From: an uncultured Bacteroidota bacterium
Lineage (GTDB): Bacteria; Bacteroidota; Bacteroidia; B-17B0; Aurantibacillaceae
Direction: 5' to 3'
Assembly: GCA_937873155.1 (NCBI GenBank)
Contig: CALMVZ010000012.1
Span: forward strand, 62,001-126,000
DNA: 64,000 bases
In this document: piece after piece, positions 44,905 to 61,935 of the stretch
How the letters are laid out: every line of letters starts with the position of its first letter
Position numbering within the stretch: the stretch's first letter is position 1
Notes under the pieces: generated by a model
Databases searched by the model: none
What the model was told of the DNA's origin: nothing
Seen by the model: the letters and a program-made list of their open reading frames with translations, nothing else
Position numbers and translations under genes: made by a program

Positions 44905-44976
44905 TTATTAACAAATAATGTACTTCCTCCTAACTGTTTGATTACTAAGGGATCATAAAGCGAAGTGGGATGTTTT

Positions 44977-45200
44977 TTACCGATATTAAATCCCTACGGG
45001 ATTTTCCATCATTAGCTTGTGGCTTTATTACCGATATTTAATCCCTACGGGATTTTTGATCATTAGATTGTACTATGTTACCGATATTTAATCCCAACGG
45101 GATTTTTGATCATTAGCTTGTATTGTGTTACCGATATTTAGTCCCTACGGGATTTTTTATCATTAGATTGTATTGTGTTACCAATATTTAGTCCCTACGG
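44977..45200. repeat. tandem array of 50/51-bp units containing a palindrome
   Basis: Four and a half direct units start at 44977, 45028, 45079 (offset by one), 45129 and 45179. Each begins TTACCGATATTTAATCCCTA followed by CGGGATTTTT, then ATCATTAG(C/A)TTGTATTGTG. The AATCCC-TAC-GGGATT part is an inverted repeat. Both the palindrome and the filler are conserved between units, and the last unit is cut off after CTACGG. No gene is present from 44905 to 45357. Confidence 0.85.
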
Positions 45201-45230
45201 TACATATAGTTAACATTTTCCGTTCGCCCT

Positions 45231-54995: not shown

Positions 54996-55646
54996 TTAGT
55001 GTTTCTTATGTTTATGAAAATGTTTTTTATGTTTGTTGTTCTGGAATTTATGACGCGGTTTATTACTACCTCCCCTGTCTCCGGCATTTGTACTTTTTAC
55101 TAATTCAGAATGGGAACTCAACGCAACCGACTCATCCAATTTCAATTCACCGTCAGAAAGATCTGTCAGGTTCTTAAAAATAATGTCATCAGTAATAGCA
55201 TCCTTGTTCCAGTTGATATATGATTTCTTCAAATGATTTGCGATCAAACGGGTGAGTTCATCTTTTTCAGGGCCATCTTTTAAAGCTTTTGCTTTTTTGA
55301 TGATCGCTTCAATAGTTTTACCATAATGTTTGAATTTAATTTTACCTGCAGGATAGGTTAAACGCGCCGGTTTTTCTTTAAAAGTTTCAGGTTTTGGTCT
55401 CGGATACGGCGAATCCACATCCAGTTTGAATTCTGAAATGATGAAAAGGTGATCCCAAAGTTTATGCGTAAAATCGGCCACATCACGTAAATGCGGATTC
55501 AGGGCGCCCATCACCTGGATAATAGCTTTTGCGCACAAATTGCGCTCTTCACGGTTCTTTAAACTGCAACAATATTCGATCATGCTCTGCACATTTCTGC
55601 CATATTCCGGGATGATCATTTTCGGTCTTTCTGTATTGTATTCCAT
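54996..55646 (-). CDS. DUF4290 family protein
   Basis: 216 aa, mostly helical, with the start YNTERPKMIIPEYGRNVQSM and a basic, His/Lys-rich tail (HKFQNNKHKKHFHKHKKH). DUF4290 is Bacteroidota-specific and is often found next to murA; function unknown. The His/Lys tail suggests binding to nucleic acid or metal. It is 17 nt upstream of murA and probably starts the operon. Confidence 0.82.
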   Translation of the reverse strand: MEYNTERPKMIIPEYGRNVQSMIEYCCSLKNREERNLCAKAIIQVMGALNPHLRDVADFTHKLWDHLFIISEFKLDVDSPYPRPKPETFKEKPARLTYPAGKIKFKHYGKTIEAIIKKAKALKDGPEKDELTRLIANHLKKSYINWNKDAITDDIIFKNLTDLSDGELKLDESVALSSHSELVKSTNAGDRGGSNKPRHKFQNNKHKKHFHKHKKH

Positions 55647-55785
55647 AGTGTCGTTCTAAGCCATAAATATAGCGAAAAATAGGGCTGTTTTTGAAGTTTT
55701 TAACTATTTATTAACCAATGCACTGTTTATTTCGCCTTTTTCTATTTTTACAGTTCTTTATTGTAAAATTTAAAACAAAAAAATT

Positions 55786-56223
55786 ATGGATTTAAAAGTA
55801 GCGGTTACCAACATTGCAGCACGTTGGAATTACAAAGTAGATGAAATTTCTCCGGGAGTTTTCAGAATGGATGTTGCTATTAAAATGAAAGACGGCACTT
55901 TCCGTTACCAGTTTGTTTACGTTTGGGTTATTGCCGGTCGTTATTTCGGAAAAGATGTTGTTTACATGAACAGCCGTTGCGGTGAATTCTCTCAAAATCT
56001 TAACCTTTATAAACTGATCAAAGAAGGTGGTTACGGTACTTTCTCTTCTGTAACTGTTACAACTGATAAACGCGCTGACGGATCTCCTTGCGAAACTGTT
56101 ATCGTACAAGCGGTTCAGCCTATCGAGTTTACTAATGAAACTATCTTAAATGAGGTTATTTACGATGTAGCATTTAATGCTGATGCAATTGAATCTCTTT
56201 ATTTTGGCGGTGATAAAAATTAA
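55786..56223 (+). CDS. conserved small cytosolic protein, unknown
   Basis: 145 aa, no signal peptide. Beta-rich, with segments VFRMDVAIKMKDGTFRYQFV and CETVIVQAVQPIEFTNETIL, and a final acidic helix. The fold looks like YbjN/type III secretion chaperone types, but this is weak. A -7-like box (TATTTTTA, 55743-55750) precedes it. The 21-nt repeat array begins 18 nt after its stop. Confidence 0.6.
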   Translation: MDLKVAVTNIAARWNYKVDEISPGVFRMDVAIKMKDGTFRYQFVYVWVIAGRYFGKDVVYMNSRCGEFSQNLNLYKLIKEGGYGTFSSVTVTTDKRADGSPCETVIVQAVQPIEFTNETILNEVIYDVAFNADAIESLYFGGDKN

Positions 56224-56240
56224 ACAGTTAACAGGGAACC

Positions 56241-56513
56241 GCAATTCTTTAACATCAAGAGGCGATTCTTTAATGTAAAGAGGCGATTCTTTGAACAAAA
56301 GATGTAATTCTGACAGTCAGAGAAGTAATTCTTTAACAAGAAGAAGCGATTCTTTAACAAGAAGAAGCAATTCTTTAACAAGAAGAAGCGATTCTTTAAC
56401 AAGAAGAAGCGATTCTTTAACAAGAAGAAGCGATTCTTTGTGCTAAACATGTAATTCTGACTGTCAGACAAACGATTCGTAAATAAGGAACAGCAATTCT
56501 CCCGGAATCAGTT
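56241..56513. repeat. 21-nt tandem repeat array with mini-hairpins
   Basis: Thirteen units of 21 nt; consensus GCGATTCTTTAACAAGAAGA plus A. The central five to six units are almost identical; the outer ones diverge. Most units can form a small hairpin, and in diverged units both sides of the stem change together: TCTTTAATGTAAAGA, TCTGACAGTCAGA, TCTGACTGTCAGA and ATTCTCCCGGAAT all pair. The minus strand is also open over most of it (heptad KNRFFLL), but with no sign of a start region. Confidence 0.88.
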
Positions 56514-56557
56514 AAGTACAGTGTTGAATTTACATTACACACACTAACCATTAGCTA

Positions 56558-56605
56558 TTAACCTATAACGGATTACCAATAACTTTTAACCAATAACTAA
56601 TAACT
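56558..56605. repeat. AATAACTAATAAC-type spacer repeat
   Basis: The spacer before sucD carries CCTATAACGGATTACCAATA and ACTTTTAACCAATAACTAAT-like strings that recur at 61881-61935 before prmA. Low complexity, probably a dispersed repeat. Confidence 0.4.
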
Positions 56606-56640
56606 TTTCACTATCTTAGCACTTCTTAAAATTTAAACTT

Positions 56641-57525
56641 ATGTCAGTACTAGTAAATAAGAATTCCAAAATTATTGTTCAGGGTTTTACGGGCGGAGAA
56701 GGAACTTTCCATGCCACCCAGATGATCGAATACGGTTCGAATGTTGTAGGTGGAGTTACTCCCGGAAAAGGTGGTACTAAACACTTAGACAGGCCTGTAT
56801 TTAACACTGTGGCGGATGCTGTAAAAAATACCGGCGCTGACGTATCTATCATTTTTGTTCCGGCTGCTTTTGCTGCTGATGCAATTATGGAAGCTGCTGA
56901 TGCAGGAATTAAAGTTATAGTTTGCATCACAGAAGGTATCCCGGTGAAAGACATGATACTTACCAAAGAATACCTAAAGGGAAAAGACAGCCGTTTGATC
57001 GGCCCGAATTGTCCCGGAGTTATTACTGCAGGTGAAGCGAAAGTTGGTATTATGCCAGGCTTCGTTTTCAAAAAAGGTACTATCGGAATTGTTTCTAAAT
57101 CTGGAACTTTAACATACGAAGCGGCTGACCAGGTTGCGAAAGCAGGTTTAGGTGTAACAACTGCAATTGGTATTGGCGGTGATCCTATTATCGGAACAAC
57201 AACTAAAGAAGCTGTTGAGATGTTAATGAATGATCCTGAAACTGAAGGTATCGTTATGATCGGTGAGATCGGCGGAAGCTTAGAAGCTGATGCCGCTCGT
57301 TGGATCAAAGCGAATGGAAATAAAAAACCTGTTGTTGGCTTCATCGCCGGACAAACTGCTCCTAAAGGCCGTACAATGGGTCATGCGGGCGCAATTGTTG
57401 GCGGCGCTGATGATACTGCTCAAGCAAAAATGAAGATCTTAAAAGAGAACGGCATCCACGTTTGTGAGAGCCCTGCTGATATTGGTAAGACAATGGCCAG
57501 GGTTATGGGCAAGGTGCCTGCATAA
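56641..57525 (+). CDS. sucD: succinyl-CoA synthetase subunit alpha
   Basis: It forms the TCA-cycle ligase with SucC (not in the window). 294 aa. The CoA-binding Rossmann motif [20 protein letters not shown] is at the N-terminus, and the phosphohistidine is in [13 protein letters not shown] near residue 250. In many bacteria sucD follows sucC; here it stands alone, as is common in Bacteroidota. A -7-like box (TATCTTAG) lies at 56612-56619. Confidence 0.95.
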
Positions 57526-61846: not shown

Positions 61847-61919
61847 GTTATCCGTTATTAGGTTATAACAAAATTTTATAGCCTATAACTTAATAACCAA
61901 TAACTTTATAACGGATAAC
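61847..61919. repeat. inverted repeat GTTATCCGTTAT / ATAACGGATAAC before prmA
   Basis: Arms 61847-61858 and 61908-61919 are perfect 12-bp complements with a 49-nt loop, in a spacer made almost entirely of TAATAAC-like strings (61828-61935). Confidence 0.6.
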
Positions 61920-61935
61920 CTCATAACTAATAACC

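Follow-up and report, generated by a model that had tools for sequence, protein, structure and literature searches.

A tandem array upstream of sucD belongs to a class of noncoding intergenic repeats with a fixed 21-bp period

Bacterial intergenic minisatellites, or VNTR loci, are composed of noncoding units joined head to tail, and such loci can be present or absent between species. Iterons are direct repeats of a single sequence, situated next to a rep gene at a replication origin, and LytTR-type direct repeats have a spacing of 21-22 bp, with two sites per operator and a family consensus. Far shorter intergenic repeats have also been described. TAACTGA heptamer arrays repeat one fixed 7-nt sequence in some Bacteroidetes and, in the main genome considered there, lie mostly near start codons (MacGregor, 2015; PMC4679880), and other bacterial repeats of 6-9 nt are described in a second source (PMC4692102). 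We found no account of an intergenic class with 21-nt units of the kind reported here in searches of open papers.

The array that drew our attention is located in a 414-kb contig (G000:C12) of a 4.85-Mb genome, within what we call the window, meaning the whole stretch of 64,000 nucleotides that was analysed (G000:C12:62001-126000). The sucD of this genome shares 67-85% identity with that of 20 genomes under named records, most with a Fluviicola and a Cryomorphaceae genome, which makes it a probable member of Bacteroidota. A first-pass annotation of this DNA had described thirteen units in a shared 21-nt phase, situated between a hypothetical gene and sucD, and both statements held when the letters were re-checked and the neighbouring genes were compared with Pfam (Table 1). 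Each unit is exactly 21 nt long, an invariant ATTC begins every 21 nt from position 56244 to position 56496, and most other columns are variable. Within the array a double-core pattern is found 12 times, and the rest of the 64-kb window has two more; whole-window shuffles have a mean of 0.95 and a maximum of 4. Tandem Repeats Finder reports the array as 9.3 copies. Five of the 13 units are identical save one base, and units 3-4 and 10-11 resemble one duplicated block, which leaves far fewer than 13 independent units.

Table 1. Features in and around the 21-nt array of the window.
Feature	Position	Strand	Remarks
Tandem array, 13 x 21 nt	56241-56513		core GYRATTC (first G is A once) followed by 14 variable nt
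Unit 4 (counted from ATTC)	56307-56327		palindromic TCTGACAGTCAGA form
Unit 11 (counted from ATTC)	56454-56474		TCTGACTGTCAGA form, kin of unit 4
Five near-identical units	56328-56432		ATTCTTTAACAAGAAGAAGCR, recent expansion
Upstream gene, 145 aa	55786-56223	+	no Pfam match; also adjoins sucD in three congeners
sucD, succinyl-CoA ligase alpha subunit	56641-57525	+	downstream gene; CoA_binding, Ligase_CoA
83-aa open frame spanning the array	56220-56471	-	TTG start, KNRFFLL repeats; not considered a gene
TAAC-type repeats	56545-56604		separate the array from sucD; reported periods are 14 and 21

A blastn search of the same genome returned a sole other match to the array, 30 nt in apparent coding sequence (L002). 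Three of seven congeners (G002, G006 and G007) carry both flanking genes on one contig, and in all three the same gene pair is present and the array is absent, the gap between the 145-aa gene and sucD measuring 417 nt here versus 129, 48 and 48 nt there. The first-pass annotation had named simple slippage without preserved pairing in related strains, together with a lack of transcript or binding, as what would tell against it, and the absence of the array from these congeners goes part of the way in that direction.

Other repeats share the window with this array. The TAAC-type tract on the sucD side of the array has a similar tract at the same place in congener G002 (L004). Repeats of the TAACCAAT/TAACTAAT type, for which periods of 14, 15, 21 and 30 are reported, make up this tract (56545-56604) and a second one at 61875-61934, and they resemble the heptamer repeats of other bacteria. 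A 50-nt tandem array of 4.5 copies at 44952-45228 carries the dyad AATCCC-TAC-GGGATT. Because this array has kin at L338:13917 and L347:9174 of the same genome, with an inverted part alongside, we regard it as a dispersed repeat family.

When tandem repeats were surveyed more widely, the window array proved to be an ordinary-looking member of an unusual class of noncoding intergenic arrays that share a fixed 21-bp period. The class is dense in a second family member, G031 (listed with 7% contamination), where 800 kb contain 61 tandem arrays, 52 of them with periods divisible by 21; three other settings gave 43 of 49, 53 of 62 and 53 of 62. The 800 kb consists of whole stretches on contigs that had come up in earlier matches, and at least three of the 52 arrays were known beforehand (C52 near 101,100; C57 near 45,400; C16 near 121,800). 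Two contiguous 200-kb stretches of this genome hold 33 tandem arrays, 28 with a period of 21, 42 or 63, and a further 400 kb holds 28 arrays, 24 of them with multiples of 21. The genome that carries the window array is poorer, with four of 20 arrays in 864 kb at period 21 or 42 (the window array, L306:1214, L314:15690 and L351:10694). Twenty 20-kb stretches, drawn from 20 other family genomes, contain 11 arrays, of which the one at period 21 is in G021, a genome already known to carry such arrays. Within 340 kb from nine other families of the same taxonomic class, two of seven arrays have a period of 21, one of them over a short open frame.

Motif searches extended the survey. Matches to the core motif were present in 10 of 87 family genomes, most of them in G031 and G069, and a five-core motif was present in 37 of 395 genomes of the taxonomic class, where some matches are heptamer or coding repeats. 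Since loci from these scans (of genome contigs, viral sequences, the 87 family genomes and the 395 class genomes) were found by ATTC, their core is imposed by the search. The arrays hold 5-28 units. When 61 distinct G031 arrays were compared by blastn, 42 matched none of the rest and 19 had a relative at another locus; one sequence-specific protein therefore cannot read all of them.

Several individual loci deserve mention in their own right. Among the few G031 arrays off the 21-nt step is a 20-nt array with strong inverted repeats (AAAAGCTcAGCTTTT, AAAAACtttGTTTTT) at G031:C44:46995-47360 (L274:16995-17360). Outside Bacteroidota, Edaphobacillus lindanitolerans carries three adjacent 21-nt arrays (L091:7170-7670) with a core like GAATCCCTACCTAT and approximately seven freely variable nucleotides per unit. 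A preference for 21 nt in bacilli and cyanobacteria is hinted at by a set of loci that had itself been chosen with a 21-nt pattern. Locus L396 (G236:C7:32639-32916) is a 21-nt array with tetraloop-like hairpins (TTCC-TTCG-GGAA, TTCCC-TCG-GGAA and TTCC-CGAA-GGAA) that overlaps a 311-nt ORF.

The period itself is kept with great precision. In the 87 family genomes, four RATTC cores at a spacing of 21 gave 127 matches, overlaps included, which fall at 23 places in 10 genomes, compared to 1, 0 and 0 matches at spacings of 20, 22 and 24; among these places, those in G083 and G018 are coding repeats and that in G005 is a heptamer repeat. The same motif read backward gave 63 matches at a spacing of 21 and 0, 1 and 5 at 20, 22 and 24, indicating that the preference for this period is not tied to one sequence. 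Moreover, the forward motif gives none at 24, so multiples of three are not favoured as such, which argues against coding. Because the period is shared and most sequences are specific to their array, these observations hint that helical spacing matters more than the letters.

A second regularity resides within the unit. The power of column conservation at 10.5 nt is raised in two disjoint 400-kb samples (z 3.7 and 3.0) and in the other arrays, which are mostly motif-found (z 3.5), and the pooled, base-corrected value is z 5.6. Conserved columns also cluster, with a lag-1 autocorrelation of z 5.6 (5.0 after base correction) and a lag-10 autocorrelation that is not raised, and the standard deviation of column identity is 0.222 versus 0.164-0.200 under simulated drift. 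Phasing of A-tracts was rejected as a candidate explanation, given that AT content lacks 10.5-nt phasing (z -3.2). Taken singly, the window array falls short of significance for the 10.5-nt rhythm (p 0.076), a plain 21-nt wave giving p 0.018, and for the same rhythm the two arrays L306 and L314 of its own genome give p 0.18 and 0.08; neither of these two exhibits an excess of dyads or of folding.

The units are symmetric as well. Of 72 arrays, 37 have dyad arms separated by 10-12 nt, compared to 22.5 (sd 3.5) after column permutation; the pooled 72 count one array twice (L258 is L427). In a second G031 sample of 23 arrays, 22 of them new, complementary half-unit stems exceed those under three control letter-mappings by 0.70 bp (se 0.14). 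Whole-array folding of 49 arrays surpasses that after joint column permutation, with a mean z of -1.19 and -0.99 on the two strands, and best-dyad p-values (from 60 permutations) are skewed low, with 10 of 49 below 0.05 and one at 0.05 where about 2.5 would be expected. Arrays of at least six units entered the stem-covariation, half-unit, GU/AC, AT-phasing, 10.5-nt rhythm and dyad-arm analyses, and arrays of at least seven units entered those of autocorrelation, folding, best dyads and simulated drift. From set B of the stem-covariation and half-unit tests, nine loci were dropped (heptamer or near-identical repeats, the window locus, and one locus already in set A).

The first-pass annotation had read the window array as a hairpin preserved by changes on both sides of its stem, with a structured RNA as its first option. 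Long stems are indeed present: the nine distinct units have a stem sum of 38 bp versus 25.3 (sd 2.6) in shuffles, and they also exceed joint column permutations (p 0.001). A register-free comparison of each unit's own half-units with chimeras gave 4.33 versus 3.36 bp (p between 0.006 and 0.018 according to the cut chosen; p 0.12-0.92 with control letter-mappings), and p 0.004 with all window units (12 after rotation). Removing one TCTGAC unit moves this result to p 0.013-0.053, and removing both related TCTGAC units moves it to p 0.10-0.17, such that compensation in this array is suggestive and amounts to about one independent event. The hairpin forms cited in the annotation use three registers (i+j = 17, 20 and 18, counted from the A of ATTC), and at each fixed register pairing and covariation stay inside the spread that shuffles or slides give; the lowest tally, 38 of 500 shuffles, is for register 18 and counts cells with a change on either side of the stem at once. 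At fixed registers, the covariation test that the annotation had proposed for the array units went against it, with no register covarying and no pair predicted by RNAalifold. What stands of the claim is the long stems, the register-free signal is suggestive, and what falls is covariation in any one register.

Across the class, column pairs with z above 2 make up 4.6% for Watson-Crick pairing versus 4.1-4.8% for controls, and covarying stem pairs number 15 of 241 versus 22 of 208, 16 of 217 and 17 of 219. In the half-unit test of 48 arrays, the matched-minus-chimeric difference is 0.235 (se 0.041) versus 0.155-0.172 for control mappings, and 12 arrays reach p <= 0.05 versus 6-7. For the 16 ATTC-core arrays the difference is 0.273 (se 0.104) versus 0.003-0.090. 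The excess of half-unit covariation over controls in the second sample is 0.100 (se 0.070), with 5 of 23 arrays at p <= 0.05 and 7, 3 and 4 for the controls. Covariation in the class is at most weak. A few arrays look compensatory, above all G369:C64 (ATTCTT/AAGAAT, ATTCCA/TGGAAT, ATTCCT/AGGAAT; half-unit p 0.06); this one is open in four of six frames, overlaps a 335-nt ORF and may be coding. On the presumed transcript strand of 37 codirectional arrays, stem mismatches comprise 152 GU and 160 AC (p 0.69), whereas RNA pairing should favour GU, and so the pairing does not look as if it operates at the RNA level. A search of 55600-57000 with Rfam found no family near its gathering score.

A structured RNA whose hairpins are maintained by compensatory change would account for the above-chance stems, the register-free half-unit signal, the class-level half-unit difference and single striking arrays such as G369:C64. 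Nevertheless, we consider it very unlikely, because the window array lacks fixed-register covariation, class covariation of column pairs and stems does not rise above control mappings, the second-sample excess is small relative to its error, GU is no more frequent than AC, and Rfam is silent at this locus. Still less credible is a minus-strand coding repeat, seven codons to the unit, which the annotation had also raised. This idea draws on the 83-aa minus-strand frame and on the 22 of 51 arrays in the 800 kb of G031 that have one to four frames open, but the other 29 have stops in all six frames, the 83-aa frame has no Pfam match above cutoff, and changes in the arrays show no clear codon-position bias (arrays of at least five units, with L262 and L264 dropped as repeats of others). 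Coding on either strand was rejected on these grounds.

Of the 72 arrays, 37 lie between codirectional genes, 23 between divergent genes and 6 between convergent genes, with 6 at locus edges, as judged by a crude ORF caller. The 37 codirectional arrays begin a median of 59 nt past the upstream stop and end 126 nt before the next start. Among 30 scanned proteins of the 55 listed downstream of arrays, which include fumarase, alanyl- and another class-II tRNA synthetase and PGM/PMM, eight have no Pfam match and six are secreted with a Por_Secre_tail domain (a raw count). These 30 show no clear theme, and a common function of the downstream genes was set aside as a candidate.

Arrays are gained and lost between species. 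In the orthologous gap at the PGM/PMM gene (protein identity 93%), G031 and G021 both have a 21-nt array whose units are strongly diverged and share ATAAAACT by eye, and G027 and G015 have no array upstream of this gene, the upstream neighbour also differing in G027. One G031 array is missing upstream of the same gene in four of four relatives, and at two further sites G031 and G021 each have an array that is missing from the other. Two empty/filled pairs reveal no clean insertion, in that the differing segments hold other sequence too, and no target duplication by eye; L334 of G021 and L257 of G031 do not align across their arrays. Within G031, unit families are common to several loci, some in inverted orientation (for example L284/L292, L257/L281, L258/L265/L268 and L433/L439).

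Two dispersed elements were encountered at G031 loci. One is a repeat of approximately 95 nt (GGGCGTTCC..GTCGGGCTTTCC..AATCCCTAACGC) with internal inverted repeats, seen at L276, L277, L293, L294, L281, L275 and L263 and lying within about 65 nt of a 21-nt array in five of these seven loci. The other is an element of approximately 45 nt at L280, L289, L268, L287, L282 and L295, within about 115 nt of 21-nt arrays, some copies of which repeat GACCG at 21-nt spacing (GACCGTATTTTTGTTAAAATCGACCG) and resemble a two-site operator.

The main rival to a DNA-level role, and a strong one that we hold to be a real possibility, is that these are ordinary minisatellites, in which slippage during replication, or unequal recombination, has multiplied a local sequence that is tolerated between genes. 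Presence and absence between species, mostly private sequences, flanking genes without a functional theme among those scanned, class-wide column-pair tests without covariation, and a position between stop and start as if the arrays were confined to free space all agree with this explanation. Even the dyads could plausibly follow from it, as hairpins in the looped-out strand would help slippage and cause inverted repeats to be over-represented. However, slippage by itself does not pick 21 over 20, 22 or 24, it does not explain the 10.5-nt rhythm of conservation, and the heterogeneity of columns exceeds that of simulated drift. A fixed unit of free sequence would also be explained by a putative enzyme that copies or inserts two-turn segments, with 21 nt as its footprint and arrays spreading as families between loci. 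The 19 of 61 distinct G031 arrays with a relative elsewhere, some inverted, the dispersed repeats beside some arrays and the uneven distribution among relatives fit such an enzyme, but the two empty/filled site pairs show no clean insertion and, by eye, no target duplication, and we judge it unlikely.

We favour instead, with a probability of roughly 0.45, that these are DNA-level arrays in which each unit has a pair of conserved patches separated by one helical turn, and that a putative protein probably binds them on one face. The exact two-turn spacing, the free sequence, the dyad arms about one turn apart and the helical conservation favour a protein-recognised DNA array, and the dyads, the 10.5-nt rhythm and the equality of GU and AC indicate a feature of DNA, with two patches on one face, rather than of RNA. 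Each unit may be a binding site in DNA whose two contact patches share a helix face, the ligand would probably be a dimeric DNA-binding protein, and a row of such putative proteins could line one face of the intergenic DNA. Copy number may change by unit duplication and by copying between loci.

Slippage alone is not expected to yield tandem repeats of one exact length with arbitrary sequence. A bolder and rather doubtful extension of the protein-bound reading is that the arrays form a class of satellite DNA constrained in period and symmetry and not in sequence, serving as two-turn rulers for a putative architectural protein along one face. By extrapolation, a genome might carry some dozens and up to a few hundred such rulers between its genes, their sequences free between arrays and species. 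If the 21-bp step is due either to a protein that senses DNA geometry or to an enzyme by which two-turn segments are multiplied, the arrays would give direct access to the architecture of bacterial chromosomes or to a new mechanism of repeat formation.

Comparison with known systems places the arrays near several of them. The window array falls within the tandem unit range of about 10-60 nt that characterizes minisatellite and VNTR loci, but here the unit is fixed at 21 nt across unrelated sequences and conservation has a helical rhythm. The TAACTGA and 6-9-nt repeats similarly form many sets of short direct repeats between genes (PMC4679880; PMC4692102), and the heptamers, the nearest described system that we found, differ in that the units here are 21 nt long and of many sequences (PMC4679880). 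A heptamer substructure was rejected, there being no identity peak at lag 7 or 14 (0.26) in 50 arrays, and a CRISPR array was rejected because five units of the window array are nearly identical even in the would-be spacer part.

Like iterons and phased operators, the arrays consist of direct repeats, each about two helical turns long, in which a core is conserved and the remainder varies; unlike iterons, they occupy dozens of loci, with differing sequences, between ordinary genes. Plasmid iterons were rejected for the window array, for which blastn against 72,556 plasmid records (E 0.01, low-complexity filter on) gave no match and which lies in its large contig between a gene pair kept in congeners, and so was an adjacent replication initiator, the neighbours tested being the 145-aa gene without a Pfam match, DUF4290, sucD and a patatin-like protein. 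LytTR-type repeats are likewise direct repeats on the same face two turns apart, whereas the arrays here hold 5-28 units and no consensus common to all was seen. The arrangement that the first-pass annotation had offered as its other option, a protein-recognised DNA array with sites on one face of the helix, is borne out in part: two-turn spacing, one-face conservation with a 10.5-nt rhythm, and dyad arms about one turn apart, as in a phased protein-binding DNA array, are found at the level of the class, and the window array by itself does not reach significance for the rhythm (p 0.076).
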